Positions 24,175-56,100 of a stretch of DNA of 64,000 nt are shown one piece after another (the stretch's first letter is position 1; the number at the start of each line of letters is the position of its first letter). The stretch covers positions 124,001-188,000 of the forward strand of contig NZ_LS422991.1 in assembly GCF_900411375.1 (NCBI RefSeq), in the 5' to 3' direction. The stretch comes from Lentilactobacillus raoultii (GTDB lineage Bacteria > Bacillota > Bacilli > Lactobacillales > Lactobacillaceae). Under the pieces are notes generated by a model, which worked only from the letters and a program-made list of their open reading frames with translations, was not told the origin of the DNA and searched no databases. The position numbers were made by a program, and so were the translations under genes.

Positions 24175-24412
24175 AATTAAGCGCCTTGCCGTTTTCGCAA
24201 AGCGCCCTTTAAGTGGAGTGAAATCACTTTTTTGACGTTTTGCTCTCACGGAAACAATTAAATCGTCATTACAGTCAATCTATTAGCATTAAAAAACCTC
24301 TTTACCGCCGTTGGGTAAAGAGGTTGTCATTTCTCCCAAGACACACTTGGGTTCATCGATTCCTTCTTAACCTCACGGGGTTAATCTTAAAGGCTCTTCA
24401 ATTCGTTGTTAA
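24175..24412 (-). promoter_or_regulatory. PyrR-responsive attenuator of pyrB-pyrC
   Basis: In the minus direction CCTTTAAGATTAACCCCGTG and then AGGTTAAGAAGG (24363-24394) form the PyrR-binding hairpin: lower stem CCTT/AAGG, upper stem TTAACC/GGTTAA, loop CCGTGA. It is followed by a terminator with arms AACCTCTTTACC and GGTAAAGAGGTT plus TTTTTT (about 24293-24325). A second hairpin with T-run, GCGCTTTGC/GCAAGGCGC, sits right before the pyrB ribosome site (about 24174-24205). PyrR bound to UMP is expected to favour termination. Confidence 0.8.
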
Positions 24413-42875: not shown

Positions 42876-43388
42876 TCATGATCGATTTATTTTCCTTAAC
42901 TGTGGCGCAATCAATTGCCGCCACATGCTTAACAAAATGACATAGCCGGCAACGACCCCAACCAGCGCACTCAAAAAGAAACTTGGGACAAATAGCCAAA
43001 GTGCGCCATTTGTGCCCATTAGCCATTTGGCAACCGGATAGGCTACAATCGCGCCAAGGATTCCGGTGCCGATTAATTCACCCAAAGCCGCCATCAGCAG
43101 GCTTTTTGTTTTTTGGAATAACCAGCCGACACAAAAAGCCCCGATCATACTGCCGGGAAAGGCTAAGACCGTCCCGGTTCCTAAAATATTTCGAATAAGT
43201 GAAGTCATAAAGGCTTGTGTCACTGCCCACCAAGGACCAACTAACACGCCGGAAATCAAATTAATTAAATGTTGCATTGGTGCGACTTTTGCAACCCCGA
43301 TGGTAAACTCAAACAAACTGCCGCCGACCACTCCCAAGGCGGATAACAACGCTGTTAAAATCATTTTATAGGTCGCCGATCGATTCAA
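42876..43388 (-). CDS. thiW: ThiW, thiamine-precursor ECF transporter S component
   Basis: 170 residues, five to six membrane helices. The pattern SLFEFTIGVAKVAPMQHLIN, PGSMIGAFCVGWLFQ and GELIGTGILGAIVAYPVAKW is characteristic of ThiW, thought to import the thiazole moiety with a shared ECF module encoded elsewhere. The start codon is TTG at 43388, five to six bases after GGAGGAG; no ATG is available in frame. The TPP riboswitch upstream supports the role. A hairpin CAGTC/GACTG lies just before the ribosome site and may act as the expression platform. Confidence 0.87.
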   Translation of the reverse strand: MNRSATYKMILTALLSALGVVGGSLFEFTIGVAKVAPMQHLINLISGVLVGPWWAVTQAFMTSLIRNILGTGTVLAFPGSMIGAFCVGWLFQKTKSLLMAALGELIGTGILGAIVAYPVAKWLMGTNGALWLFVPSFFLSALVGVVAGYVILLSMWRQLIAPQLRKINRS

Positions 43389-43485
43389 TAAAAACTCCTC
43401 CAGTCATTCAACAACAATGAGACTGCTACCGGAAATGAAACGTGTGGCAACCCACTTTGTCGAAAAAAGAAAAGACAAGCTTCAT

Positions 43486-43572
43486 CGGCAGTTTCCCTCC
43501 GCTGGGTTTAACCAGATCAGGTTCAAAGGGTTCGCAAATGATATGCGTCTCAGCCAGCAGCACCCCTAATGT
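43486..43572 (-). ncRNA. TPP riboswitch (THI element) of thiW
   Basis: In the minus direction GGGGTGCTGCTGGCTGAGA, GAACCCTTTGAACCTGATC and TGGTTAAACC followed by AGCGGAGGGAA give the complete thi box: the CTGAGA and ACCTGATCTGG core elements are exact. It represses thiW when thiamine diphosphate is plentiful. No strong terminator follows, so translational control is likely. Confidence 0.92.
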
Positions 43573-43665
43573 CATCATTTTTAATCATCGTTATTTAACG
43601 AATCGTTCAAATCATACCACCAAATCATCCAAAGCAACAGTCGGACTACCAGGTAAGCAACTTGT

Positions 43666-44553
43666 TCACCCAGATTGATCCTGAATCCGTTTGGCTACCG
43701 CCCGCTTTACCTTGGCCATGACTGTCTCAACCGGCATTTTTTGTCCGGTCCATTGCCTAAAGGAGCCGGCAGCTTGATGAACCAGCATCCCGACTCCATT
43801 AAACGTCCGACAACCGCGCTTCTTCGCTGCTGCTACCAGTGGCGTTTCAAGTGGAAAATAAATCGCATCGACTACCACGTGTTGAGGAGTTAATTGAGTT
43901 AACACCGTCTGGCTTATTGGTAAGAGCTGGTTTTCACCCATGCCAAGATTGGTGGCATTGACGATGATTTGACTATCAGCCACCGATTTTGCCATTGCAT
44001 GATCATCGCCGTACGGTATCACTGTAATAACGGTCGACCAACTTTCCAATAATTTTTTTCGTGACATAAAAGTGGCATTTTCTCGTTTAAAAACTGTGAT
44101 CTTTGCCGCCCCTGCCTCAATGGCCGCAGCGATGATTGATCGACCTGCGCCACCGGCACCCAAAATGGTTATTTTTTGATTTTTGACAGTAATGCCCGCA
44201 GATTCCAACGCATCGATAAACCCCTGCCCATCCGTAGTATCGCCAATCAAGCGGCCGGCATGGTTAGTAATGGTATTAACTGCCCTTAGCCGAGTCGCAC
44301 GAGGCGTCACCTCATCAAGAAGCGGTAACACTTCCGTTTTTAAGGGCATTGACAGGTTCACCCCGCCGATATTCATGGCGCGCATTGCCTCAATGCTTGG
44401 CTTTAAATTGTCAGGTATGACGTCAAAGGCTAAGTAAACGCCATTAATTCCGGTTACCTCAAAACTTGTATTGTGAATTAATGGCGAAAGGCTGTGGGCG
44501 GCTGGATGGGCCAATAAGCCATACAATTTAGTGTGTCCGTTAATCATTTTCAC
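43666..44553 (-). CDS. aroE: Shikimate dehydrogenase
   Basis: 295 residues. The substrate motif AHPAAHSLSPLIHN and SMPLKTEV, with the catalytic Lys in MPLKTEV, are in the N-terminal half. ITILGAGGAGRSIIAAAI is the NADP Rossmann loop. It reduces 3-dehydroshikimate to shikimate. Last gene of the aromatic operon; 22 bases behind aroK. Some paralogues prefer quinate, but position in the aro operon favours AroE. Confidence 0.92.
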   Translation of the reverse strand: MKMINGHTKLYGLLAHPAAHSLSPLIHNTSFEVTGINGVYLAFDVIPDNLKPSIEAMRAMNIGGVNLSMPLKTEVLPLLDEVTPRATRLRAVNTITNHAGRLIGDTTDGQGFIDALESAGITVKNQKITILGAGGAGRSIIAAAIEAGAAKITVFKRENATFMSRKKLLESWSTVITVIPYGDDHAMAKSVADSQIIVNATNLGMGENQLLPISQTVLTQLTPQHVVVDAIYFPLETPLVAAAKKRGCRTFNGVGMLVHQAAGSFRQWTGQKMPVETVMAKVKRAVAKRIQDQSG

Positions 44554-44575
44554 CCTCGTTTCTGCTTGTAACCAA

Positions 44576-45085
44576 CTAATTCAAAACTGATAAGGCCTGC
44601 CTGATTTCATTCACGACCTGTTCAGGTGTTAAATGATCCGTTGCAATTCGGATATCACTAACCTGACGATAACGATCATCCCGTTGACGTTTTAATTCAA
44701 CTAACCCCTCCAGCCCCAATTTCTTAGCCAGTGGCCGATCATGATCGTTTTTTAACTGTGTTAAGATCGTTTCCGGCAAAACATCCAGCAGAATAACCGG
44801 AACCGTTGTCTGACATAATAATTCAAAGTTAGCAGGTTGAATTGGCGTACCGCCCCCTGTCCCTAAAATACCAGCATCCCCGAGTGAATTCATTAACGCG
44901 TCGTGTTCCAACATTCGAAACATCGCTTCACCTTCATCATCGAAGATCTGCTGAATAGATTTACCCGCCCGATTAATCACGACATCATCTAAATCGTGAT
45001 AAGGAACTTGAATTTGATTTGCGAGTAGTCGGCCAACAGTGGTTTTGCCGCTGCCCATAAACCCAACCAAAATTGCTCTCATCAT
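44576..45085 (-). CDS. aroK: Shikimate kinase
   Basis: About 169 residues, the usual size. P-loop ILVGFMGSGKTTVGR; the shikimate-binding DDVV and TGGGTPI are present, and the lid arginines are in RQRDDRYRQV. It phosphorylates shikimate at O3. The frame extends to 45103 over the tyrA stop, but MMRAILVG at 45085/45082, behind AAGGA/GAGGG, is the expected N-terminus. Part of the aro operon. Confidence 0.92.
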   Translation of the reverse strand: MMRAILVGFMGSGKTTVGRLLANQIQVPYHDLDDVVINRAGKSIQQIFDDEGEAMFRMLEHDALMNSLGDAGILGTGGGTPIQPANFELLCQTTVPVILLDVLPETILTQLKNDHDRPLAKKLGLEGLVELKRQRDDRYRQVSDIRIATDHLTPEQVVNEIRQALSVLN

Positions 45086-45089
45086 ACCC

Positions 45090-45947
45090 TCATTTCCTTT
45101 CATCCACTGATTTCCGACTTGTCCGAGCCCGTTTCAAAAATTGTTTAATCGTCGACTCATCGTGTGCTGTCAGTGCTTTTTGGAACTGCGCCAAATGCTG
45201 CTGAAACTGTGTTAAAGACTGATTGATTCGATCAGTATTATTCATCATAATGGCTGTCCACATGGTTGGATCAGCAGCTGCAATTCTGGTCGTATCTTTA
45301 AAACCACCAGCAGCCGCCCGCAAGCCAAGTGGTTCTCCTTCTAAATCATCAACAGCCGTATTAACCAACGTGGTCGCAATAACGTGTGGCAAATGACTCA
45401 GTTCACAGACCAATTGATCGTGTGAAGAAGAAGAAATCGGTTGCCAATGGATCGCTGCTTTACTTAATAGTTGCTGAAACTGTGCAAGTTTGCGATTGTT
45501 CTTTGTTTGACCAACAATAAAATAAGTCGCGTTATTAAATAATTCAGAAGATCCGAATCGACTGCCCGATCGATCGGAACCCGCCATTGGATGGCCACCA
45601 ATGAAGTTAATATCATTTTGAATTAGTTGGTTTGCGGTTTTCATAATGGTTTCCTTGGTGCTGCCAACGTCAGTCACCAAAACATCCGACTTCAATGACA
45701 AGGTCGCCAACACGTTAATTTGTTCAAGAATCACGGAGACCGGCCCTGCCAAAATAATAAAGTCAGCAAGCGGGGCAGCCTCCGAAAACGTCTGTCTGCG
45801 ATCAATCAGTTGATGATTAAGCAAAAACTGAGCAGTTTCATCATCCGGGTCACTGCCAATAATGGTTAGTTCCCGATGATCCTGTTTAATCATCCGAGCA
45901 ATTGAGCTCCCAATTAATCCCAGGCCACTAATTAAGACTGTGGCCAT
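45090..45947 (-). CDS. tyrA: Prephenate dehydrogenase
   Basis: 285 residues. Rossmann motif ISGLGLIGSSIARMI at the start, GGHPMAGSDRSG with the catalytic histidine near residue 121, and the helical dimerisation domain (CELSHLPHVIATTLVN, GGFKDTTRIA). It makes 4-hydroxyphenylpyruvate, the direct precursor of tyrosine. No ACT domain, so feedback control would differ from B. subtilis TyrA. It lies 15 bases behind aroA and overlaps the extended aroK frame. Confidence 0.93.
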   Translation of the reverse strand: MATVLISGLGLIGSSIARMIKQDHRELTIIGSDPDDETAQFLLNHQLIDRRQTFSEAAPLADFIILAGPVSVILEQINVLATLSLKSDVLVTDVGSTKETIMKTANQLIQNDINFIGGHPMAGSDRSGSRFGSSELFNNATYFIVGQTKNNRKLAQFQQLLSKAAIHWQPISSSSHDQLVCELSHLPHVIATTLVNTAVDDLEGEPLGLRAAAGGFKDTTRIAAADPTMWTAIMMNNTDRINQSLTQFQQHLAQFQKALTAHDESTIKQFLKRARTSRKSVDERK

Positions 45948-45962
45948 ATTTTTTCACCTCAA

Positions 45963-47264
45963 TTAAGAATCGATTTCAACGCTTGTCACACTGGCTAAAT
46001 CATCAAAAAATTCCGGATACGAAATATTAACGCTCTCTGCGCCATCTAATTGAAGTGGCTCATCAACTAATAGTGATGCAATCGCTAATGTCATCCCGAT
46101 TCGATGATCACCGTGACTATCCAGCTTTGGCTTATTCACCTGCCAAGGCTGGCGGCCATCAATCATAAACCCATCCGGTAGTTCCCGAATAGCAATCCCA
46201 AGCTTGGAAAATTCTCGAACTACTGCAGCAATCCGATCAGTCTCTTTCACCCGCAACTCACCCGCACCGGTTATCCTACTAATACCGTTTGCTTTGGCAG
46301 CCAATAAAGCCACTAATGGTAGTTCATCAATCACCGCTGGGATATCAGCTTCACCGATTTCAATCGGTTTTAAAGCCGCACTGGTCACAACCAGATCAGC
46401 TGTGGGTTCGCCTCGATCCTGTCGATGGCGTTCAACGACATTGCCACCCATCCTTTTTAGGATTTTTAACAAACCGGTCCGAGTTTCATTGATTCCGACA
46501 TTTTTCAACGTCACTTTTGAGTGAGGAACCAAGGTTGCCGCTACCAGAAAAAAGGCGGCTGAAGACATGTCACCCGGCACTGTTAACTCAACGCCTTTTA
46601 ATGCGGGTTGGGGGGCAACGTGAATGGTCAGCTTATCCGATTCTGTTTGAATATCGGCGCCAAAAGCGTTTAACATTTTCTCTGTATGGTTTCGAGTCGG
46701 TAATTTCTCAATCAGGGTTGACGGTTGGTCTGCTTGAATAGCGGCCAAAATTAAGGCACTTTTAACTTGGGCACTGGCAACTTGTAATTGATAATTAACC
46801 GCGTGAAGATGGTGTCCCCGAATTCTTGCCGGTAAATGGCCCTCCGTCACACAAATGTCAGCGCCCATTTTGGCTAACGGTTCACTGACCCGCCTCATGG
46901 GTCGATTGGACAAGGAGGCATCTCCAAAAAGGGTGGTTTCAAAGCGCTGCCCTGCCAACAACCCCATGATGAGTCGGGTCGTTGTGCCTGAGTTGCCCAT
47001 GTCTAATGGTTTGCCGGGATATTTTAGGCCATGAAGCCCAACACCATGAATCATAACCGTTGTGCCGTCCCGTTCGATCGGCACCCCGAGCTGCTGAAAG
47101 GCCGTCAACGTCGATAGACAATCTGCCGCTGTCAAAAAGTGGTGAAGAACCGTGTCTCCTTCGCTAATTGCCCCGAGGATAATACCGCGATGAGAAATAC
47201 TTTTGTCACCGGGAACCGTTAGTTCACCGTGTAAACCGGCTACCGGCCTAGCTGCTAATTGCAT
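45963..47264 (-). CDS. aroA: 3-phosphoshikimate 1-carboxyvinyltransferase (EPSP synthase)
   Basis: 433 residues. LTVPGDKSISHRGIILGAI at the N-terminus, GNSGTTTRLIMGLL, SAQVKSALILAA and the C-terminal GDHRIGMTLAIAS mark the complete two-domain enzyme. GNSGTT and the residues around it resemble class II enzymes of Gram-positive bacteria (class not tested). It joins phosphoenolpyruvate to shikimate-3-phosphate. It lies 15 bases behind aroC, with AGGAGG. Confidence 0.95.
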   Translation of the reverse strand: MQLAARPVAGLHGELTVPGDKSISHRGIILGAISEGDTVLHHFLTAADCLSTLTAFQQLGVPIERDGTTVMIHGVGLHGLKYPGKPLDMGNSGTTTRLIMGLLAGQRFETTLFGDASLSNRPMRRVSEPLAKMGADICVTEGHLPARIRGHHLHAVNYQLQVASAQVKSALILAAIQADQPSTLIEKLPTRNHTEKMLNAFGADIQTESDKLTIHVAPQPALKGVELTVPGDMSSAAFFLVAATLVPHSKVTLKNVGINETRTGLLKILKRMGGNVVERHRQDRGEPTADLVVTSAALKPIEIGEADIPAVIDELPLVALLAAKANGISRITGAGELRVKETDRIAAVVREFSKLGIAIRELPDGFMIDGRQPWQVNKPKLDSHGDHRIGMTLAIASLLVDEPLQLDGAESVNISYPEFFDDLASVTSVEIDS

Positions 47265-47279
47265 ATAATGATCGACCTC

Positions 47280-48449
47280 CTAAAAATCTTTTAGTTCTTC
47301 TCGGTAGGCTCTTACCTGTTCTTGAAGCCGGCTCACATTATCACCGTCAAATTTGTCAAGCACTGCTTTAGCCAATTCAATGGCAATCACACTTTCAATC
47401 ACAATTGAAGCCGGCACAATCGCCGTGGTATCTGAACGCTCAACGTTCGCCTTCTTGACAACTTTCGTCTTAATATCAACACTTTGCAATGGCTTATATA
47501 ACGTTGGGATTGGTTTCATTGCCGCTTTTACAATAATTGGCATCCCATTGGTCATACCACCTTCAAAACCACCCAAGTGATCCGTATTCCTAAAGAAGCC
47601 GGCTTCCTGATGCCAGTCAATTTCATCCATGACTTGACTACCGTAACTGGTGGCAGCTTTAAAGCCGTCCCCAATTTCAACGCCCTTCATCGCATTGACG
47701 CCCATCACAGCTGCCGCTAACTTTGCATCCAGCTTAGTATCCCAGCTGATGTAGCTGCCCAGTCCGGCTGGGACATTGGTTGCAACAACCCGAATAATCC
47801 CGCCCAATGTATCCCCGGCTTTTCTGGTTCGATCAATCAACTCATGAATCTGGTCAACTTTTGTTTGATCAATCAGCCGCAAATCATTTTTCTCAATGGC
47901 CGTTTCGATCTTGGAAACATTCAATTCAGGTTGGCTATCAGTTGAGATTGGGCCAACCTGTTCAACGTATCCGACCAATTGAATGTCGACTTGAGCTAAA
48001 AGTTGTTTGCAAACCGCCCCAATGGCCACTCGTATGGCTGTTTCTCTTGCTGAGGAGCGTTCGAGCACATTTCTTAAATCACGATGCCGATATTTCATCC
48101 CACCAACCAAATCGGCGTGACCAGGTCGGGGCCGTTCAACCTTTCTTAATGTATTTTCAGGAGTCTCTTGAGTGACTGGATCCATAATTTCATTCCAGTG
48201 TGCGTGATCCCGATTATTAACAACCAATGCAATCGGCGACCCTAACGTGATGCTATGGCGAACACCCCCGACAATGGCTACTTGGTCATGTTCAATTTTT
48301 TGGCGGTTGCCCCGACCATAACCTCCCTGACGTTTTTTAAGTTGTTGGTTAATCTTCTCGACGTCTAAATGTAACCCTGAAGGAATTCCTTCAATAATCC
48401 CAGTTAGTTGGGGGCCATGTGATTCTCCTGCAGTTAAATAGTTCAGCAC
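47280..48449 (-). CDS. aroC: Chorismate synthase
   Basis: 389 residues from GTG 48449 (LNYLTAGESHGPQLTGIIEG), seven bases after AGGAGG; the longer frame to 48566 overlaps aroQ and lacks support. RPGHADLVGGMKYRHRDLRN with the SSARETA block forms the FMN and substrate site. Reduced FMN is required to convert EPSP to chorismate. It begins at the aroQ stop, so the two are coupled. The length fits the Bacillus-type family. Confidence 0.95.
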   Translation of the reverse strand: MLNYLTAGESHGPQLTGIIEGIPSGLHLDVEKINQQLKKRQGGYGRGNRQKIEHDQVAIVGGVRHSITLGSPIALVVNNRDHAHWNEIMDPVTQETPENTLRKVERPRPGHADLVGGMKYRHRDLRNVLERSSARETAIRVAIGAVCKQLLAQVDIQLVGYVEQVGPISTDSQPELNVSKIETAIEKNDLRLIDQTKVDQIHELIDRTRKAGDTLGGIIRVVATNVPAGLGSYISWDTKLDAKLAAAVMGVNAMKGVEIGDGFKAATSYGSQVMDEIDWHQEAGFFRNTDHLGGFEGGMTNGMPIIVKAAMKPIPTLYKPLQSVDIKTKVVKKANVERSDTTAIVPASIVIESVIAIELAKAVLDKFDGDNVSRLQEQVRAYREELKDF

Positions 48450-48450
48450 G

Positions 48451-48774
48451 TTATTTCCTCCTATCGGTTCTATTTTCTTGTGAATCACGTTCAAAATCTC
48501 TGGTATTTTCCATAATGGTCCGATAAATGTTCCAGATATACTGGCGTGTCTGCTGATTAGCATCAAGCGCCGTCACTCTTTCTAAAACCCCTTCTTCACG
48601 AGTGGGGTCAAAAACCGGCAACCCCTGTTTCTCTTTAATTTTGCCAATCTTGGCTGCTGTTTCAAAGCGTTTGGCTAGTAACGAAACGATCGCTTCATCA
48701 AGCTGATTAATTTGTTTTCTGGCAGCAGTTAATTTCTTGGAGCTGTCCCATGCTGGATCCGTTTTTATCAACAC
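48451..48774 (-). CDS. aroQ: Chorismate mutase, AroQ class
   Basis: 107 residues, all-helical AroQ. LTAARKQINQLDEAIVSLLA, KRFETAAKIGKIKEKQ and VFDPTREEGVLERV hold the conserved Arg, Lys, Asp-x-x-Arg-Glu ligands. It converts chorismate to prephenate. First gene of the operon, starting at GTG or TTG (48774/48771) behind GAGGTGG, right after the attenuator terminator. There is no prephenate dehydratase in the window, so phenylalanine synthesis needs pheA from elsewhere. Confidence 0.88.
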   Translation of the reverse strand: MLIKTDPAWDSSKKLTAARKQINQLDEAIVSLLAKRFETAAKIGKIKEKQGLPVFDPTREEGVLERVTALDANQQTRQYIWNIYRTIMENTRDFERDSQENRTDRRK

Positions 48775-48800: not shown

Positions 48801-48834
48801 AAAAAACCGGCTAGAATGATATCCAGCCGGTTTA
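48801..48834 (-). terminator. Attenuator terminator of the aro operon
   Basis: AAACCGGCTGGAT and ATTCTAGCCGGTTT with a short loop and TTTTTT, 27 bases before aroQ. Its 5' arm CCGGCTGGA can instead pair over nine positions with TCTGGCTGG (48863-48871). Confidence 0.85.
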
Positions 48835-48958
48835 CTAAACTCGTAAAGAATTGGTAATTGACCCAGCCAGACTTTTGCGTCTAGCGGCCAATAACAAAGC
48901 ATTGACTCTGCACCACTTAGACGCGAACGCGTGAATTGCGCCCGCATCACTGCGGACA
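48835..48958 (-). promoter_or_regulatory. Attenuator core RNA of the aro operon, homologous to that of the MFS gene
   Basis: After the leader stop come CCGCA/TGCGG, the hairpin ACGCG-TT-CGCGT, then GCGTCTA (48918-48924), which can pair with TAGACGC (48877-48883). That segment also pairs as GCTAGAC with GTCTGGC, which otherwise joins the terminator. Blocks GATGCGGGCGC and ACGCGTTCGCGTCTAA (48917-48932) occur identically in the leader at 52.6 kb. Four mutually exclusive segments fit an attenuator. Pairing by hand. Confidence 0.75.
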
Positions 48959-49018
48959 CTACATAAAGTAGGCATAGCCAAAATAAAAGTTGTTAACTTG
49001 AGAGATTTGCTTTGTCAT
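48959..49018 (-). CDS. Aromatic leader peptide of the aro operon (19 aa)
   Basis: ATG 49018 to TAG 48959-48961, with AGAAGG about ten bases upstream. The peptide reads MTKQISQVNN then FYFGYAYFM: six of nine terminal residues are Phe or Tyr. It lies eleven to twelve bases ahead of the hairpins of the attenuator core and downstream of promoter 49050-49078. Phe/Tyr starvation would stall the ribosome near the end, leaving the stop-proximal hairpin uncovered. Homology with the leader at 52618-52683 (N-x-x-Y-x-GYA-x-F) supports selection on the peptide. Confidence 0.82.
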   Translation of the reverse strand: MTKQISQVNNFYFGYAYFM

Positions 49019-49049
49019 TGATATCAATCCTTCTCATTAGATTGATATC

Positions 49050-49078
49050 ATTAAACCATATTAGGGAAATTCCGTCAA
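49050..49078 (-). promoter_or_regulatory. Promoter of the aro operon leader
   Basis: TTGACG (49073-49078), 17 bases containing CTAATATG, TTTAAT (49050-49055). The same layout and the CTAATATG string occur in the promoter at 52709-52737. Confidence 0.75.
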
Positions 49079-49250
49079 CCCTAATAATTCTCTCATCGAC
49101 TTCTAATCGCACCGGCCATTCTACTTTTACTGCCAGTATTATTTTATTTTTATTAGTTGCCACTATCGTTGACATCTCTTAAACGGCATGTAAAAATAAA
49201 TTGATTATTAAAAACGGGATTCAGTCAGTTATGCACTGGGGGCATTAGTA

Positions 49251-50297
49251 ATGATTCGAAAACATTTATTCATAAAAGTTGGTATGATCACGCTATTTGG
49301 TTTTACTCTAGGATTAATGGCTACACAATCGGCAACACCGACTTTAGCCAAAACAACGCCTACAACTACTCACTCAGCTGAGCATTTAACCTATGGTGAT
49401 ATCACAAACCAAAACGAAAACCGTTTGGGAACCATTCGCCAATTGACCCGTTCAACTTTAGCCGAAACCCACCATTTAACGGGTAAACAGGTCCAAAAAC
49501 TGGTTTATTTACCACTGCCAAGACACTTAAGTGCAAAAAACTTTACCCTGGATAATGAACACTTAACGATTCATCTTACTAAGAACGCTTACGGTGTTAA
49601 AAATGTCGCTATTCCACTCAGCAAATTAACCGGCATTCTTTTAAACCGCTACATGCCGACCAAGTATGATTTTACCAAGCCCACTTCACCAAGGAAGGTC
49701 GTTTCTTTAACATTTGATGACGGGCCAGACCCAACTTTGACCCCCAGATTATTAAAAACGCTCAAGAAGTACCACGTTCCAGCCACTTTCTTTGAAGTCG
49801 GTACCAGTGTCATGCGGTATCCATCCATCAGCCGATTAGTCCTTAAATACGGCAACCAGATTGGCAATCACTCATGGAGCCATCCACAGTTAACCAGTCT
49901 CACCAGCCCAAAGGCTCTTCGACAAATTTCATTAACTGATGCTGCTATTTACAAAGCAACTGGGACGATACCGACTTATATTCGACCACCATACGGCGAC
50001 GTTAACGCCAGGATTGGCCATTTGTATGATCGCCCGATTGTTCGTTGGTCCGTTGATTCCAGAGATTGGGCCTACCTTAATACGGCTAAAACTGTCCATC
50101 ACGTCCTTTCAACTACAACCAATGGCTCGATTATTTTAATGCATGATATTCACGCGACGTCCGTGGCAGCCGTTCCTCAAATTATCCGATCATTAAAGAA
50201 ACGGGGCTACAACTTTGTTACTTTGGAACAATTAAACGAAAAACCGTTACTGGCAAACCTCCAATATTTTGGCAGAAATGACTACCGCGGATTCTAA
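49251..50297 (+). CDS. Secreted polysaccharide deacetylase (NodB domain), probably peptidoglycan deacetylase
   Basis: 348 residues. A signal peptide or anchor (FIKVGMITLFGFTLGLMATQ) is followed by about 110 residues of unknown N-terminal domain. The NodB catalytic domain starts at about 145: SLTFDDGPDPTLTPRLLKTL (Asp pair), GNQIGNHSWSHPQL (His pair), IRPPYGDVN and WSVDSRDW. It would deacetylate N-acetylglucosamine residues of the cell wall, giving lysozyme resistance. aroD follows after nine bases, an unexpected partner. The start at 49251 has only a weak GGGG site. It is divergent from the aro leader. Confidence 0.87.
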   Translation: MIRKHLFIKVGMITLFGFTLGLMATQSATPTLAKTTPTTTHSAEHLTYGDITNQNENRLGTIRQLTRSTLAETHHLTGKQVQKLVYLPLPRHLSAKNFTLDNEHLTIHLTKNAYGVKNVAIPLSKLTGILLNRYMPTKYDFTKPTSPRKVVSLTFDDGPDPTLTPRLLKTLKKYHVPATFFEVGTSVMRYPSISRLVLKYGNQIGNHSWSHPQLTSLTSPKALRQISLTDAAIYKATGTIPTYIRPPYGDVNARIGHLYDRPIVRWSVDSRDWAYLNTAKTVHHVLSTTTNGSIILMHDIHATSVAAVPQIIRSLKKRGYNFVTLEQLNEKPLLANLQYFGRNDYRGF

Positions 50298-50306
50298 GGA
50301 GAGACT

Positions 50307-51059
50307 ATGCTAAAAGTCAAAACGACCATTTTTAAAGCTGGTCACACAAACATCGCCGTTCCAATTACCGGCACAACTGCCACCGAAATTTTTGCTCAGG
50401 CACTCCAAGCACTCACTTATCATCCCGACGTCATTGAGTGGCGAATCGATTATTATCAACAGGTGTCGAACCAAAAAGCCTACTTAGCCACAGTTAATCA
50501 TCTGCGATCCTTACTGGGTGAAACTGTTCTTTTGACAACATTTAGAACCCAACACGAAGGTGGCGTTGCTAAGCTAGCTGACTCGGACTATTTTTCGATT
50601 TATCGATGGCTCCTGGAAAATAAACTAACGGATATGCTGGATATTGAATTAAATCGCAATAAAGCAACTGGTAACTTTTTAATTCAACTGGCTCATCAGC
50701 AACAAATTCCCGTTATTTTAAGCCAACATGACTTCCAAGCGACGCCCACTGAAGCCGAAATCGTTTCCAGATTGAAACGGATGCAGGAGAGAAACGCTGA
50801 TATCGGTAAGATTGCTGTAATGCCTCAGAGCGCCCAGGATGTTTTAGATTTGTTAAATGCAACGGAAAAAGCCACTCATGAGCTTGAAATTCCCTTAATC
50901 ACCATGTCAATGGGAGAGTTGGGTAAAGTTAGCCGAATCTCCGGTCCGTTATTTGGCTCCACCTTAACGTTTGCGTCAGTCAGTGATGCTTCAGCACCAG
51001 GCCAGTTAACAGTCGCGGACGTTAGAACCGCCATGGCGATGATTTCACCCAAGAAATAG
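50307..51059 (+). CDS. aroD: 3-dehydroquinate dehydratase, type I
   Basis: 250 residues. VIEWRIDYY (about residue 40), TFRTQHEGG and VILSQHDFQATPT contain the type I active-site Glu, Arg and His. The Schiff-base lysine is in IGKIAVMPQSAQD, and ITMSMGELGKVSRISGPLFGS with the terminal ASVSDASAPGQL completes the barrel. It dehydrates 3-dehydroquinate to dehydroshikimate. It sits behind a deacetylase gene, not in the aro operon, with GGAGAG as ribosome site. It could serve biosynthesis or quinate use. Confidence 0.93.
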   Translation: MLKVKTTIFKAGHTNIAVPITGTTATEIFAQALQALTYHPDVIEWRIDYYQQVSNQKAYLATVNHLRSLLGETVLLTTFRTQHEGGVAKLADSDYFSIYRWLLENKLTDMLDIELNRNKATGNFLIQLAHQQQIPVILSQHDFQATPTEAEIVSRLKRMQERNADIGKIAVMPQSAQDVLDLLNATEKATHELEIPLITMSMGELGKVSRISGPLFGSTLTFASVSDASAPGQLTVADVRTAMAMISPKK

Positions 51060-51068
51060 TTGTTTTTG

Positions 51069-51113
51069 AGACGATCAAAGCAAAGGCGATGCACACCTTG
51101 TTTTGATCGTTTT
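51069..51113. terminator. Terminator after aroD
   Basis: ACGATCAAAGCAAAGG pairs with CCTTGTTTTGATCGT; T-run TTTTT follows. Confidence 0.8.
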
Positions 51114-51151
51114 TAATTTCAATCACCCGGTAACCCAATTACAACTTAAAT

Positions 51152-52426
51152 CTAGCTATCCTTGCTTTGGTTACTGGAAATAATTGTTCTCCCTGAATGA
51201 TTGAGGCCATTTATTGCGTGCTCGTGCTGTTTAGATGTAACAGCCGGGTTAACACTTAAGCAAAATGTTGCCAATACAACCAACACCGTGCCGATCAGCT
51301 CGATTATCACATCAAAATTCATCACCAGCTGAAGGTTCGTCTTAGAGAGCCAGCCTGTAACAATTGGGATGGTAAAGGTTGCAATGCTCCCAAAAGTAAA
51401 GTAGGTCCCGGTGATTAGCCCTTTATGTCTGGGGAACATTTTAAGCAGAATATTTAAAGCGATCTGCATTACCCCACCGGCAGCTGTGACGCCAAATGTA
51501 AAGGCAGCAATTGACGTTATCATAACGGTTGAGGTATGACCAACAACGTAAATTGCCAGCAAGGAAAGGGTGTTCATCGTAACCAATAGTTTTGTTTCTG
51601 ACACCCGCATCTTCAATAAAATAAAATTGAGGATAACGCCACTAATCGAGCCAATACTATATAACGATAGTAGGCCGTGGGAAATCAATGAACTGAAGCC
51701 AAGATTATTTGTGGCAAACAGACTGATCCACTGAGTAAATAAAATCATAATCGCCATGGTTGTGTAACCATAAATCGCTAACGAGACTGTGGCAAGTGAC
51801 TTCCGGACCTTGGAAATTGCCTCATGAGTTACTACAAACGCTGAATCAACATGATTCTGTTCAGGGAACTTAACATCGCGAAGGATGACAAGATTAGCGA
51901 CTAAGACCAGCAACGTGCCGATAAACGACCAACCAAACCACATTTGCTTGGCTTCCAGCATCGCAACCACTAATGGTAATACAAACTCCCCCAGCGACAT
52001 AAATGCCTTAATAAAAACGTTGGAAGCGCTGGAACTACCACCCATTTCCACAAAGGTCGGATATGTTCCGGAATCAAGTGCGGAGTTGGCGATCCCGGCA
52101 ACGATAGCGAATAAATAGGCTAACACAATGTTATGCGTAAACGGAATTCCGATAAAAAATGCCATGTAACTGAAGACGCCGGCCAAGACTAATTGTCGTC
52201 GACCAAATCGATCAGATAAATAGCCAAACAGAAAATAAGCAATGAGTTTACCAATTCCAATCCCTGAAATCACATATGAAACTGTCGCAATCGGAACTTT
52301 CCAAAAATTTCCTAAAGCCTGCATATTTTGAGTTAAGATAATCAAGCCAATCCCATGAACCAGATAGTTCAGGTAAAGGCTAAGCGAAAGTTTTCGTTTG
52401 TTTGAATTCGTCATTTCATTCGTCAC
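51152..52426 (-). CDS. MFS transporter under aromatic attenuation, candidate shikimate/quinate or aromatic-compound permease
   Basis: 424 residues from GTG 52426 (VTNEMTNSNKRKLSLSL), nine bases after GGAG; the longer frame would start inside the terminator hairpin. Twelve helices, with GYLSDRFGRRQLVLAG as MFS motif A between helices 2 and 3. It resembles organic-acid/sugar-type MFS permeases rather than drug exporters, and I cannot name the subfamily. Its leader is homologous to that of the aro operon, so it is expressed when aromatic amino acids run short. aroB and a DAHP synthase are not in the window. Import of a shikimate-pathway intermediate or an aromatic amino acid is inferred, not shown. 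Confidence 0.8.
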   Translation of the reverse strand: MTNEMTNSNKRKLSLSLYLNYLVHGIGLIILTQNMQALGNFWKVPIATVSYVISGIGIGKLIAYFLFGYLSDRFGRRQLVLAGVFSYMAFFIGIPFTHNIVLAYLFAIVAGIANSALDSGTYPTFVEMGGSSSASNVFIKAFMSLGEFVLPLVVAMLEAKQMWFGWSFIGTLLVLVANLVILRDVKFPEQNHVDSAFVVTHEAISKVRKSLATVSLAIYGYTTMAIMILFTQWISLFATNNLGFSSLISHGLLSLYSIGSISGVILNFILLKMRVSETKLLVTMNTLSLLAIYVVGHTSTVMITSIAAFTFGVTAAGGVMQIALNILLKMFPRHKGLITGTYFTFGSIATFTIPIVTGWLSKTNLQLVMNFDVIIELIGTVLVVLATFCLSVNPAVTSKQHEHAINGLNHSGRTIISSNQSKDS

Positions 52427-52453
52427 AATATCACACTCCAATTTCAAAGTATT

Positions 52454-52490
52454 AAAAAAAGCCAGCCGGATTTGAGAATCCAACTGGCTA
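52454..52490 (-). terminator. Attenuator terminator of the MFS transporter
   Basis: AGCCAGTTGGATT and AATCCGGCTGGCT with TTTTTTT, 28 bases before the start codon. Its 5' arm CCAGTTGGA can pair over nine positions with TCTAGCTGG (52529-52537) as antiterminator. Confidence 0.85.
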
Positions 52491-52617
52491 ATTTTTTACT
52501 CGTCATTCGTGTAAAAGAATTATCCTATCCAGCTAGACTCTGACGTCTAGCTGGCAACAACCAATCACGGCTTTGCGGTTAGACGCGAACGCGTAGGCGC
52601 CCGCATCTTAACGGGCG
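52491..52617 (-). promoter_or_regulatory. Attenuator core RNA of the MFS transporter
   Basis: Hairpin GCGCCCG/CGGGCGC (52597-52618) overlaps the leader stop. ACGCG-TT-CGCGT follows, with identical block ACGCGTTCGCGTCTAA (52579-52594). CCAGCTAGAC/GTCTAGCTGG (52529-52554) forms a ten-pair anti-antiterminator. The order of elements equals that of the aro leader at 48.8-49.0 kb. Confidence 0.75.
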
Positions 52618-52683
52618 CTATCTAAACCAGGCATAGCCGTAATAATAGGCATTCAGTTGTTGGACAAGTTTTGTCATAGTCAT
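52618..52683 (-). CDS. Aromatic leader peptide of the MFS transporter (21 aa)
   Basis: ATG 52683 (or 52677) to TAG 52618-52620, behind AAAGGAA. The peptide reads MTMTKLVQQLNA then YYYGYAWFR: four Tyr, one Trp and one Phe in the last nine. It aligns with the aro leader FYFGYAYFM, and the DNA shares GGCTATGCC. Promoter TTGACG, 17 bases, TTTAAT at 52709-52737. Stalling for aromatic aminoacyl-tRNA is the expected signal. Confidence 0.82.
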   Translation of the reverse strand: MTMTKLVQQLNAYYYGYAWFR

Positions 52684-52708
52684 AATTCCTTTCCTGTGAT
52701 TTGAGTAT

Positions 52709-52737
52709 ATTAAAACATATTAGAACTAATCCGTCAA
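52709..52737 (-). promoter_or_regulatory. Promoter of the MFS leader
   Basis: TTGACG (52732-52737), 17 bases with CTAATATG, TTTAAT (52709-52714); near duplicate of the aro leader promoter. Confidence 0.75.
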
Positions 52738-52848: not shown

Positions 52849-53697
52849 TTACTTTGTTGGTAAAACGATATCAGACGGCTTAACTTCCTTACCAAAGTAT
52901 GGCTTTAATTCTGTGTTGTAATCAGTAACGAAGAAACTCTTTTTCGTTAATTTGTTGATCTCTTTATTGGTCCAATTAAGAAGTGATTTATTGCCCTTCT
53001 TAACCGCTGGTGCGATATACGATTTAGGACCGATGCTCTTGATACCAACCGTATACTTCGGATTACTCTTAGACCAAGCATAGAGGTAAGAATTATCGTC
53101 AGCCAAGGCGACACCACGACCGTTCTTTAAAGCATTAAACTGTTGAGTTTTTGAATCAAATTTTAGCAAGTTGACATTTGGTTGTTTTGAAGTGAAGTAA
53201 TTCTCAGCCGTCGTTCCCTTTGTCACAATCAAGTTTTTGTTTTGCAGCTGACTGGCCTTGGTAACTGGTTTGTTCTTAGGTGAAACCACCCCAACGGAAA
53301 CCTTCATATACGGCTTGGCAAAGCTCACCACCTGTTTTCGTTCAGGCGTTACTGTAAAGTTAGCCAAAACCAAATCAACTTTATTGGAATTCAATGCATC
53401 CACCCGGTTATTGGCATTAACTTGAACAAACTTCACTTTAACGCCTAAGTCCTTGGCCACTTGATGAGCCAGTCTAACATCATAGCCCACTCGTTTACCA
53501 TCCTTATTAACCCAGCCATATGGTGGTAGATCACCAAAAACGGCGATACGAATGGTGCCTTTTTTCTTAATTTGAGCGACCGAACTCGGGTTGTTTTCCG
53601 AGCTCTTTTTGCTATTGCCGCAGCCGGTTAAGACCAACAATAAGGCCGCAAACACACTCACGACAGCAATTAATTTTGTTACCCAGTGTTTCTTCAT
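52849..53697 (-). CDS. Amino-acid ABC transporter substrate-binding lipoprotein
   Basis: 282 residues. Lipoprotein signal with lipobox VLTGCGNSK (Cys about 26). SBP family 3 features: GTIRIAVFGDLPPYGWVNKD, KRVGYDVRLAHQVAKDLGVK, VDLVLANFTVTPERKQVVSFAKPYM and the KGTTAENYF hinge. It delivers an amino acid to the permease pair encoded upstream. Last gene of the operon behind the T-box leader. Family 3 proteins bind polar amino acids, cystine and others; the exact ligand is open. Methionine or cystine are possible given the T-box. Confidence 0.9.
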   Translation of the reverse strand: MKKHWVTKLIAVVSVFAALLLVLTGCGNSKKSSENNPSSVAQIKKKGTIRIAVFGDLPPYGWVNKDGKRVGYDVRLAHQVAKDLGVKVKFVQVNANNRVDALNSNKVDLVLANFTVTPERKQVVSFAKPYMKVSVGVVSPKNKPVTKASQLQNKNLIVTKGTTAENYFTSKQPNVNLLKFDSKTQQFNALKNGRGVALADDNSYLYAWSKSNPKYTVGIKSIGPKSYIAPAVKKGNKSLLNWTNKEINKLTKKSFFVTDYNTELKPYFGKEVKPSDIVLPTK

Positions 53698-53728
53698 GAT
53701 TAAAAACCCTCCTCAAAAATTAATTAAT

Positions 53729-54469
53729 CTAAAAATCCATACTATCTAAAAATTCCCTTGCCCGATCCGTTTGTGGATTCGTAAAGAACTGTGATGACGG
53801 CGTTTGTTCTAAGATCCGCCCATCTTGCAGAAATAAAACCCGGTCCGCAATTTGTTTAGCAAAGTTCATTTCATGAGTCACAACGATCATCGTCATATTA
53901 TCCTGATTGGCTAAATTTTCAATAATCGTCAAGACCCCCCGAACCATTTCTGGATCTAGGGACGCTGTCACCTCGTCAAACAACATAAAATCAGGATGCA
54001 ATGCCAGCGCTCTGACAATCGCCACCCGTTGCTTTTGACCCCCGGACAGCTCACGAGGATAAACATTTGCATAATCTGCTAATTCAACACTTTTTAAAAG
54101 TGCCATTGCTTCAGAGCGGGCAGTTGCCCGATCCTTTTTTTGAACTTTCGTTGGTCCAAGTAAAATGTTGTCCATCACGGTCAAATTGGGGAAAAGATCA
54201 TAACTTTGGAAAACCATGCCAATCTTTTGACGAATTTGTTGCCAATTCTTCTCAGTCGGTACGACCTTCTTCCCTTCAAATGTAATTGTGCCTTTTTGGT
54301 AAGCCTCCAACCCATTTAAGCAACGAATCAGCGTACTTTTACCTGAGCCGGACGGTCCCAGCAGTGTCACCACTTCACCCTGTGCAACGGAAAAATTAAT
54401 ATCGTGCAAAACATGCTTCTTTTGATATGATTTCTCTAAGTGCGCTACTTTTAAGATCTGCTCAGCCAT
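53729..54469 (-). CDS. Amino-acid ABC transporter ATP-binding protein (GlnQ type)
   Basis: 246 residues from ATG 54469 (MAEQILKVAHLEKSYQKKHV); the extended frame to 54529 lies in the permease gene. Walker A GPSGSGKSTLIRC, signature LSGGQKQRVAIVRAL, Walker B FMLFDEVTASLDPE and switch VVTHEMNFA. It powers the family-3 amino-acid importer. The start has GGAG at seven bases and overlaps the upstream permease by eight bases. Confidence 0.92.
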   Translation of the reverse strand: MAEQILKVAHLEKSYQKKHVLHDINFSVAQGEVVTLLGPSGSGKSTLIRCLNGLEAYQKGTITFEGKKVVPTEKNWQQIRQKIGMVFQSYDLFPNLTVMDNILLGPTKVQKKDRATARSEAMALLKSVELADYANVYPRELSGGQKQRVAIVRALALHPDFMLFDEVTASLDPEMVRGVLTIIENLANQDNMTMIVVTHEMNFAKQIADRVLFLQDGRILEQTPSSQFFTNPQTDRAREFLDSMDF

Positions 54470-55151
54470 TTGTCCGCTCCAATCTCCTTTTTTCCAATCG
54501 CTTAGCCCACCATGACAGCGGATAATCAATTAGAAAATAAAATAAAAATATCAATCCGTAAACCCAAAAGACGCCAGTTGGATAGGTGTGATTGTTGGCT
54601 TCAATAATTTGCTGCCCAATATTGATCACATCCATTACTGAGATCAATAACAGAATCGACGTCGTTTTGATAACCCGAGTTGCCAGATTAATCGTTGCCG
54701 GTAATTCCAAATTAATCGACTGTGGAATTAAAACGTACCAATAAAGCTGCATTGTACTTAACCCAATTGCTTTACCAGATTCCACTTGGTGTTTAGGAAC
54801 AGAAATCAAAGCGCCACGAACAATATCACTCATTTCAGCGGCGACCCAAAGCGCAAAGACCAGTGTCGCCAATTGCTCGGCCGGTAAATTAAAATTGAGT
54901 TGCCTTGGTAAGATATAATAGAACAAAAACAGCAGTACTGGTGTCGGAATGATTCGGAAAAATTCAAGATAAAGCCGCAACACGACTCTAAGCAGTCGGT
55001 TCTTAAAGGTTCTCAAAACCCCTAAAAGGATTCCGAGAATAATGCCGGCAATTAAAGCAACTGCAGCAATTTTGATTGTCACCCAAAGGCCACCCAGTAG
55101 CCGAACGAAGTTTGTCCCTTCCAGCAGCACATTAATTCCCGAATGAGCCAT
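54462..55151 (-). CDS. Amino-acid ABC transporter permease (HisM type)
   Basis: 229 residues, about five helices. LWVTIKIAAVALIAGIILGI and the EAA loop GKAIGLSTMQLYWYVLIPQS mark the HisMQ family. It forms a heterodimer with the adjacent permease. It overlaps that gene by 20 bases and the ATPase gene by eight. Confidence 0.9.
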   Translation of the reverse strand: MAHSGINVLLEGTNFVRLLGGLWVTIKIAAVALIAGIILGILLGVLRTFKNRLLRVVLRLYLEFFRIIPTPVLLFLFYYILPRQLNFNLPAEQLATLVFALWVAAEMSDIVRGALISVPKHQVESGKAIGLSTMQLYWYVLIPQSINLELPATINLATRVIKTTSILLLISVMDVINIGQQIIEANNHTYPTGVFWVYGLIFLFYFLIDYPLSWWAKRLEKRRLERTNG

Positions 55152-55791
55152 ATCGAACCCTCTTTTCTAATAACGTGAGAATAATTGACAATGGTATCAG
55201 GATAATTGCATAACCAATGACCAACACCAACAGGTATTCATTTGACCGATAATACATCCCAATCAAGTCCAACGCCGTGTTGGTCAACTCGGGAATCGCA
55301 ATCACTGTAAAAATCGAGGTTTCCTTAATCAAAAAGATTACATTTGCGGCCATTGCCGGCACGCTTAATGAAAACCCTTGTGGAAAAACAACGTACCTTG
55401 CCAATTGCCAGCGACTCAATCCAATCGCTTTACCGGATTCCACCTGGCTTTTGGAAACGCCGTTAAAGCCACCAGTAAACCCTTCTGCCATGTAACTACC
55501 GCCTAAAAAGATCAGGCCAATGATGCCACATAATTCGGCACCAAATTTAATACCGATTACTGGAAACGCATAATATAAGAAAAAGAGCTGAATTAAAAGC
55601 GGTGTATTACGCGATACTTCAACGTATACCGATGCAATTTGGTAAAGAAGCGGTATTTTAAAATATTGAAGCAAACTGCAAACCAAGCCAACAATCATTG
55701 AGCCGATAATGCCAACAAAGGAAAGCCACAGTGTTAACATAAATCCCTTTTCAAACATCGGCAGGCTTTGCTGGATAATAGCCCAACTCAT
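55132..55791 (-). CDS. Amino-acid ABC transporter permease (HisQ type), first gene
   Basis: 219 residues, five helices. GFMLTLWLSFVGIIGSMIVG and the EAA loop SGKAIGLSRWQLARYVVFPQ are family hallmarks. It is the first gene after the T-box and is co-translated with its partner permease through a 20-base overlap. The full order is T-box, permease, permease, ATPase, binding protein. Confidence 0.9.
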   Translation of the reverse strand: MSWAIIQQSLPMFEKGFMLTLWLSFVGIIGSMIVGLVCSLLQYFKIPLLYQIASVYVEVSRNTPLLIQLFFLYYAFPVIGIKFGAELCGIIGLIFLGGSYMAEGFTGGFNGVSKSQVESGKAIGLSRWQLARYVVFPQGFSLSVPAMAANVIFLIKETSIFTVIAIPELTNTALDLIGMYYRSNEYLLVLVIGYAIILIPLSIILTLLEKRVRYGSFGN

Positions 55792-55858: not shown

Positions 55859-56100
55859 AAAAAACCCTGCCACCTTGAACTGCGCCAAAGTAACAGGGAC
55901 GTTTTTAAACGTGGTTCCACCCTACTTCGTGTTTAACAAACTTAAACACCTTTATAATAAACACTATTTAACTGATCATCATACCCCGTCTTCAACTCAG
56001 AGCGCACTTTCAATCTGCCTGGCCATTCTTTCACTGTCAATGGTCGCTTTCTACCAGGTTTCCGATTTACTCTTCTCATCAACGCTGAAGATTAAAAACT
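55859..56100 (-). ncRNA. T-box leader of the amino-acid ABC transporter
   Basis: AGGGTGGAACCACG (55910-55923) is the canonical T-box antiterminator sequence. The terminator CCCTGTTACTTTG / CAAGGTGGCAGGG plus TTTTTT follows (55859-55900). Upstream GAGAAGAGTAAATCGG (AG-bulge region) and a long stem I are visible. A specifier candidate is ATG (55980-55982, in GGGGTATGATG), which would mean methionine, but TAT or GAT are not excluded because the loop was located by hand. The region 55792-56209 holds no protein gene. Confidence 0.88.

Follow-up and report, generated by a model that had tools for sequence, protein, structure and literature searches.

Two leader RNAs on one contig

The window analysed here is a stretch of 64,000 nucleotides from Lentilactobacillus raoultii (assembly GCF_900411375.1, contig NZ_LS422991.1, positions 124,001 to 188,000 of the forward strand). 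Its minus strand carries two leader RNAs, one ahead of an operon of shikimate-pathway genes (the aro leader, L003) and one ahead of an MFS transporter gene (the MFS leader, L026); in the operon, chorismate mutase is followed by chorismate synthase, EPSP synthase, prephenate dehydrogenase, shikimate kinase and shikimate dehydrogenase (Pfam). The original prediction, made on the letters of the window, had taken the two leaders for homologous aromatic leader-peptide attenuators of one architecture, a reading that homologues and covariation now support. The details it gave are present as well, here with measured lengths: peptide ends FYFGYAYFM and YYYGYAWFR in open reading frames (ORFs) of 60 nucleotides on the minus strand; a common promoter layout, with the same hexamers, a 17-nucleotide spacer and 60 nucleotides from −35 to ATG; DNA blocks common to both leaders (GGCTATGCC, GATGCGGGCGC and ACGCGTTCGCGTCTAA); and a terminator 27 (aro) or 28 (MFS, likely GTG start) nucleotides before the gene. 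Our analysis indicates that both leaders very probably act by ribosome-mediated transcription attenuation through one conserved, old and retunable RNA scaffold.

A seven-segment relay with a control-codon helix

The core RNA is a relay of seven segments (S1 to S7) together with a further helix, C0:X, which covers the control codons. The segments form two exclusive folds, ON (1:2, 3:4 and 5:6) and OFF (2:3, 4:5 and 6:7), so that antiterminator and terminator exclude each other as in ribosome-mediated attenuators. A simpler reading with just a terminator and an antiterminator was replaced because RNAalifold, run on the alignment of 28 leaders from the genus, gave the control-codon helix with a stretch past S3 and the inner helix 2:3; helix 4:5 was also recovered, and both partners had changed in six of the 29 consensus pairs, of which the control-codon helix contributes five. 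The nine-position antiterminator partner proposed originally is correct for the aro leader, in which we count nine pairs by hand, but it is one part of a larger relay. Pieces of both window leaders lacking the ORF fold into helices 2:3 and 4:5, which are OFF pairs.

Covariation was assessed in a MAFFT alignment of 124 leaders, from which L023 (terminator cut by an insertion), L149 (shifted stop) and the non-leaders L150 and L156 were omitted. The paired share of cells is 93.9% in the ON helices, where 16 of 23 pairs show double changes, and 94.9% in the OFF helices, where 24 of 30 do; slid controls, with partners moved by one to three columns, reach 27–43%. None of 500 shuffles attained the observed paired percentage or covariation score for either fold, and three attained the observed number of double-change pairs for ON. 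We also compared the duplex energy of each leader's own segments with the energy obtained when segments were exchanged between leaders, using 77 representatives that share less than 80% identity. All the proposed helices stand out: z is −13.8 for 1:2, −11.9 for 2:3, −11.1 for 3:4, −13.1 for 4:5, −12.0 for 5:6, −19.7 for 6:7 and −11.7 for C0:X. For 12 of the 15 other pairings z ranges from −1.2 to +3.0; the remaining three are S4:S7 (−8.5), C0:S5 (−5.5) and S5:S7 (−2.4). Among 34 representatives from the wider order, swapping supports 1:2 (z −10.4), 2:3 (−5.4), 4:5 (−9.5) and C0:X (−7.8).

Control codons follow the target gene

We collected 220 leaders and assigned them to targets by BLAST against representatives drawn from the leaders' own loci. 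The control codons that a leader carries track its target: Phe/Tyr before shikimate genes, Phe only in some groups, nearly Tyr only at nhaC, Trp at TrpX, and Ile/Leu/Val. Counted per leader over the last nine residues, mean Phe and Tyr are 1.93 and 3.59 for MFS (69 leaders), 3.18 and 1.67 for TrpX-like binding proteins (57), 1.91 and 3.70 for chorismate mutase (23), 1.83 and 3.43 for aroE (23), 3.44 and 0 for a family that we call HTLGP (9), and 0.22 and 4.11 for nhaC (9). The available text of one study (PMC2494555) places NhaC genes of several Firmicutes under Tyr T-boxes. All ten branched-chain targets, namely ilvA (3), a Peripla_BP_6 “livJ-like” gene (3), ilvB (2) and ilvE (2), have Ile/Leu/Val leaders, and these ten leaders together hold a single Phe.

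At least three aromatic residues occur in 206 of the 220 leaders, a count favoured by the codon columns that the models include. At least three Ile/Leu/Val occur in 12: the ten at branched-chain genes, L241, whose frame was misassigned by the script and is in truth aromatic, and L122, which has no proper frame. The remaining two are Trp leaders (TWQNWRR and AWQNWRR), and the proteins after them pass the curated TrpX cut-off of 390 bits with 828 and 470, whereas two scanned TrpX relatives with Phe/Tyr leaders score 325 and 317. A third protein grouped with TrpX (L287) also has a Phe/Tyr leader; the TrpX cut-off scoring covered other proteins. There are 22 target groups in all, eight of them known from one occurrence or one locus set. 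The original expectation of aromatic specificity fits the window leaders, which carry Phe/Tyr/Trp codons, but not for the scaffold, which in other genera carries Ile/Leu/Val or Trp alone. Ribosome-mediated attenuators require a short ORF whose control residues match the target; such ORFs are found here, and their translation is predicted.

The peptide ends could themselves be the sensor, as in the comparison system TnaC, such that a conserved end would arrest the ribosome on free aromatic amino acid and not on uncharged tRNA. The ends are more alike than the remaining ORF, Arg is the last residue in 135 of 220 leaders, and Gly or Ser recurs between the aromatic residues; however, C0:X pairing constrains the peptide end too, the final residue is not fixed (R, K, S, M, L, A and others), and the residue classes (Phe, Tyr, Trp, Ile/Leu/Val) swap with the target, as codon sensing expects. 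We regard a nascent-peptide sensor as very unlikely.

Several target genes merit description. In two loci (L095:662-2110, minus strand; L290:585-2051, plus strand) the MFS transporter under leader control carries a chorismate mutase domain (Pfam CM_2) fused to its C-terminus, a hint that the transporter handles some compound of the shikimate pathway; in the window, transporter and mutase are encoded separately. The HTLGP proteins have 178–207 residues and begin with HTLGPxxTDS, and their leaders are Tyr-free Phe leaders in all nine loci found. The two members scanned (L088 and L126) have no Pfam or NCBIfam match, and their resemblance to prephenate dehydratase in a profile comparison is weak (probability 10.6%), too little to accept a relationship. 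Outside the order, one genome has at locus L289 an aromatic leader, RYYYFGWFS, ahead of a gene for transketolase, a source of the shikimate precursor erythrose-4-phosphate.

Predicted folds depend, on average, on ribosome position

We modelled translation by setting a ribosome at each codon, with its leading edge 12 nucleotides past the first base of the A-site codon, and folding the RNA ahead of it. This masked-ribosome folding predicts the ON fold for a stall at the control codons and the OFF fold for a ribosome at the stop codon or for an untranslated leader. With RNA up to S4, the mean probability of the 3:4 helix, P(3:4), over 77 leaders is 0.75, 0.79, 0.82, 0.85, 0.86, 0.80 and 0.71 for A sites −10 to −4; after codon −4 it falls to 0.34, 0.12 and 0.15 (stop codon), and it is 0.19 without a ribosome. 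P(3:4) is higher in the stalled state than at the stop in 66 of the 77 leaders, and swapping S1 or S2 between leaders lowers the stall/stop contrast from 0.68 to 0.29 or 0.32. With RNA up to S6 at equilibrium, mean P(5:6) is 0.38–0.45 stalled, 0.22 at the stop and 0.13 without a ribosome. The competing folds envisaged for the window leaders are borne out in part, each leader passing one of the two masking tests: the aro leader has P(5:6) of 0.90–0.91 at A sites −8 to −5 and 0.05 at the stop (RNA to S6), and the MFS leader has P(3:4) of 0.68–0.96 at −10 to −4 and 0.17 at the stop (RNA to S4). Therefore, kinetics must decide.

Proposed mechanism and points against it

The mechanism that we propose starts from a leader ORF of 19 codons, whose last part holds the control codons (here Phe/Tyr/Trp) before the stop; directly after it come seven segments, each complementary to the next. 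When charged aromatic tRNA is scarce, the ribosome would stall at the control codons; C0:X could not form, because the stalled ribosome covers these codons, S1 would be left free, 1:2, 3:4 and 5:6 would form in place of the terminator, and the operon would be read. When charged tRNA is ample, the ribosome would reach the stop and cover S1, so that the OFF helices 2:3, 4:5 and 6:7 form and transcription stops; in an untranslated leader, C0:X and 2:3 would likewise favour termination. The scaffold would be retuned by changing the control codons, and would have been copied before many genes for amino acid synthesis and transport across Lactobacillales. The ORF, the alternative folds, the covariation, the distribution and the codon–target link are computed results; stalling, readthrough and the response to amino acids are what we infer.

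Several observations weigh against ribosome-mediated attenuation by such a relay. The evidence is computational throughout. Peptide frames were picked partly by composition, and differences at codon positions 1, 2 and 3 in the front half of the ORF (407, 437 and 488 for aro leaders; 128, 66 and 138 for MFS leaders) give no clear proof of translation. In the folding, P(3:4) with RNA to S4 is lower stalled than at the stop in six of the 77 leaders, and the contrast weakens at equilibrium once S6 is included; the aro leader still has P(3:4) of 0.78 at the stop and thus no clean switch, and in the MFS leader P(5:6) is at most 0.01 in all states. In the swap test, we have no explanation for the C0:S5 signal, and we read that of S4:S7 as transitivity because S4 resembles S6; in the wider order, swapping lends 3:4 no support among the 34 representatives (z −1.5), in which its segments are nearly invariant. 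Shared ancestry is still contained in the statistics of both the swap and the shuffle tests.

Distribution across Lactobacillales

A pattern search allowing up to three mismatches finds just these two copies in the host genome, where the next match of model R2 (see below) after the two leaders has an E value of 1.6. In the genus, BLAST (E ≤ 0.01) detects the aro-type leader in 16 of 24 genomes and the second, MFS-type leader in 12, and the peptide end is aromatic-rich in all 28 genus leaders, including all 16 aro leaders. A chance origin of the window pair is excluded, because the host genome holds just two matches and genus genomes carry both leader types. A scan of named genomes with the leader pattern from this genus returned 11 stretches, all from Lentilactobacillus; L. 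hilgardii DSM 20176 is among the strains with such a leader.

A lack of homologues and covariation in related genomes had been named beforehand as refuting the reading; covariance-model searches found homologues both in Lactobacillaceae and in the order, and the alignment showed covariation. Model R1 was built on the 28 genus leaders; at E ≤ 0.1 it has matches in 129 of 397 Lactobacillaceae genomes, covering 23 of 40 genera, and by our own count about 101 genomes remain at E ≤ 1e-5. The leader ORF is complete in 97 of 100 loci fetched, with its start, control codons and stop in place; of the other three, L150 and L156 are no leaders, and L122 shows aromatic codons with the stop missing from its usual place. 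Model R2, built on the 77 representatives, all from Lactobacillaceae, matches 170 of 295 genomes of the order in 57 of 74 genera (E ≤ 0.05), about 140 by our own count at E ≤ 1e-5, and all 80 loci fetched carry a leader ORF, with the frame chosen partly by composition. Six genomes with weak hits were searched again; judged by eye, L225 is a leader among the six best loci and the other five (L226–L230) are not. Since loci at loose thresholds include non-leaders, the genome counts at such thresholds are upper bounds. In the class, model R3 (101 leaders) gives matches at E ≤ 0.001 in 27 of 299 genomes. Five of the 27 lie outside the order, and the three of these five that were inspected, which exclude G799 and G809, hold leaders (L287–L292). 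Across the phylum, R3 matches three of 299 genomes, all within the order. These results make a widespread and largely undescribed leader-RNA family in Lactobacillales well supported. In locus L248, a distance of about 1.2 kb separates two tandem leader matches (351-488 and 1691-1829, plus strand).

Relation to known regulatory RNAs

Ribosome-mediated attenuation is familiar from the proteobacterial trp, his and phe leaders, which combine a leader ORF with control codons, exclusive folds and an intrinsic terminator. The present family shares their working principle and differs from them by its seven segments and control-codon helix, by serving several amino acids and by its 22 target groups. 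The his leader is summarised as a case of leader-peptide attenuation in the available text of PMC9413887, and His leaders of the same kind are described for bacilli and other Firmicutes (PMC2965389, PMC9413887); these have histidine codons and other genes, and the parts of both papers at hand name no Lactobacillales leader. As far as the available text of PMC8632094 goes, the uORFC-13-1 motif has a Phe-coding upstream ORF and a terminator before a shikimate-pathway gene, and is reported just from Acholeplasma and environmental sequences, only before aroF; it differs in host range and gene, and is set apart here by description and not by model comparison.

The window leaders have no match at gathering level in Rfam 15, whose matches across the window are limited to a PyrR site and a TPP riboswitch; a match of the aro leader to the trpB motif (RF04312) was dismissed as a terminator-like chance match (25 bits, cut-off 59). 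Nor do they match RF02863, “Enterococcus sRNA 2410” (gathering score 61 bits), even at E ≤ 5. RF02863 does match distant relatives, two of 20 passing the cut-off in one scan and seven in another, and 18 of 20 at E ≤ 0.01. The original remark that no named RNA family was known for this in lactobacilli is right for the window leaders, but their distant relatives have one. The RF02863 model covers the leader and terminator of relatives found with R2 and is thus placed on the same element; Rfam files it as a small RNA (sRNA) gene, unlike the cis-acting attenuator that we read in it, which would make it a branch of this family.

That filing implies another reading, in which the short RNA acts mainly in trans and the gene downstream is incidental. 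The matches to RF02863 speak for it, and an attenuated transcript would be a discrete RNA of about 200 nucleotides; but a gene of a target group follows the leader in 219 of 220 loci (the group representatives being drawn from the same loci; the exception is the insertion-cut L023), the codons track that gene, and the alternative folds end in a terminator before it. A mainly trans-acting role is accordingly very unlikely in our judgement.

A T-box or a metabolite riboswitch, with translation playing no role, is a further alternative. T-boxes control amino acid genes in these bacteria according to the available text of PMC2494555, and they are abundant in the host genome, where the T-box model (RF00230) gives 50 matches at E ≤ 0.001, 18 of them over the cut-off. 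The same model has no match at either window leader, and the aro operon and the MFS gene therefore appear to be under a different system; neither leader matches an aptamer, the predicted fold depends on ribosome position, and the codons follow the target. We consider this alternative extremely unlikely. T-boxes and, as we propose, our family share modular control of amino acid genes by the level of charged tRNA, which a T-box binds directly and which this family would sense through the translating ribosome.

To our knowledge, accounts of how lactic acid bacteria regulate amino acid genes mostly centre on T-boxes plus repressors, and a study of aromatic regulation in low-GC Gram-positives (Panina et al. 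2003) reportedly names no such leader. We found no report of this family in the open-access literature, with subscription papers mostly outside that search; a term search of PMC3166299 gave no hits. It is well supported that these leaders form a largely undescribed RNA family working like the classical leader-peptide attenuators. We further think it likely that one scaffold constitutes a general amino acid attenuation system of Lactobacillales beside the T-box, reprogrammed by codon exchange alone (Phe, Tyr, Trp, Ile, Leu/Val) and placed before about 22 kinds of gene, with the Rfam “sRNA” as one branch.

A retunable leader-peptide family spread over many genera would fill a gap in the picture of regulation in lactic acid bacteria, would explain an orphan Rfam sRNA, and would offer a natural series of leaders for testing how codon position and the RNA relay set attenuation. 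If the proposal is true, the specificity of recruited transporters and enzymes could be read from leader codons: Phe-rich leaders would mark TrpX-like transporters and the unannotated HTLGP family, Ile/Leu/Val leaders a periplasmic-binding-protein gene, and mixed leaders the MFS protein that is fused to chorismate mutase in some species.

Evolution of the family

The window leaders are 71% identical to each other, whereas the nearest same-gene leaders elsewhere are 98% (aro) and 94% (MFS) identical to them; therefore, the aro/MFS duplication is old. In another genome (G224) the aroA and MFS leaders are 91% identical and look like a more recent copy or conversion. The earlier idea of a mobile cassette finds no support beyond this duplication: the aro leader has no plasmid match, and the 20-nucleotide core of distant relatives has no exact match in viral contigs, where the scan covered that core alone. 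The cassette seems to have been copied occasionally before new genes, and a mobile element is not supported here. Genome G206, from another genus, carries a leader and MFS gene (L061) that closely resemble their counterparts in the window genus (86% identity to L026) and lie beside a second copy (L090); this is probably a transfer. In L023 (genome G001), an insertion has cost an MFS-type leader its terminator arm, and an ORF that by eye is transposase-like replaces the start of the MFS gene.

Layout of the window leaders and their surroundings

Table 1. Features of the two window leaders and their downstream genes, with the HTLGP loci of other genomes
Feature	Position	Strand	Remarks
aro leader promoter	49050..49078	-	−35 TTGACG 49073-49078, 17-nt spacer, −10 TTTAAT 49050-49055; putative, by consensus match
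aro leader peptide Shine-Dalgarno AAGGA	49028..49032	-	by sequence
aro leader peptide ORF	48959..49018	-	60 nt, 19 aa, end FYFGYAYFM, stop TAG; control codons Phe/Tyr
aro segment C0 (control codons)	48965..48981	-	partner X
aro segment S1	48952..48958	-	immediately 3' of stop codon; partner S2 in ON fold
aro segment S2	48938..48948	-	partner S1 (ON) or S3 (OFF)
aro segment S3	48918..48931	-	partner S2 (OFF) or S4 (ON)
aro segment X	48902..48918	-	partner C0
aro segment S4	48877..48887	-	partner S3 (ON) or S5 (OFF)
aro segment S5	48863..48872	-	partner S4 (OFF) or S6 (ON, antiterminator)
aro leader intrinsic terminator S6:S7	48801..48833	-	
Chorismate mutase (Pfam CM_2), aro operon gene 1	48451..48774	-	ORF from 48774, 27 nt past terminator
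Other aro operon genes	43666..48566	-	Pfam; presumed single transcript
MFS leader promoter	52709..52737	-	−35 TTGACG 52732-52737, 17-nt spacer, −10 TTTAAT 52709-52714
MFS leader peptide Shine-Dalgarno AAGGA	52687..52691	-	by sequence
MFS leader peptide ORF	52618..52677	-	60 nt, 19 aa, end YYYGYAWFR, stop TAG
MFS segment C0 (control codons)	52621..52640	-	partner X
MFS segment S1	52611..52617	-	
MFS segment S2	52597..52607	-	
MFS segment S3	52579..52593	-	
MFS segment X	52567..52583	-	overlaps S3 end
MFS segment S4	52544..52554	-	
MFS segment S5	52529..52538	-	
MFS leader intrinsic terminator S6:S7	52454..52488	-	28 nt before likely GTG start
MFS transporter gene (Pfam MFS_1)	51152..52426	-	likely GTG start 52426
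HTLGP loci	L088, L091, L126, L143, L145, L152, L155, L157, L262		

The longest MFS ORF begins at 52483, inside the terminator. Between S5 and S6 there is often an extra small hairpin (e.g. UUUAC...GUAAA); in the window it falls at 48834-48862 and 52489-52528 (minus strand). Between the two leader units, on the opposite strand (49251-51059, plus), are genes for a polysaccharide deacetylase and a type I 3-dehydroquinase of the shikimate pathway. Elsewhere on the minus strand, the TPP riboswitch (43476-43577) lies upstream of a ThiW-type transporter gene (42876-43388), and the PyrR-binding site is at 24288-24397. A T-box match of 64.8 bits, below the 93-bit cut-off, at 55892-56091 (minus strand) precedes an operon (52849-55791) that by eye resembles an amino acid ABC transporter.

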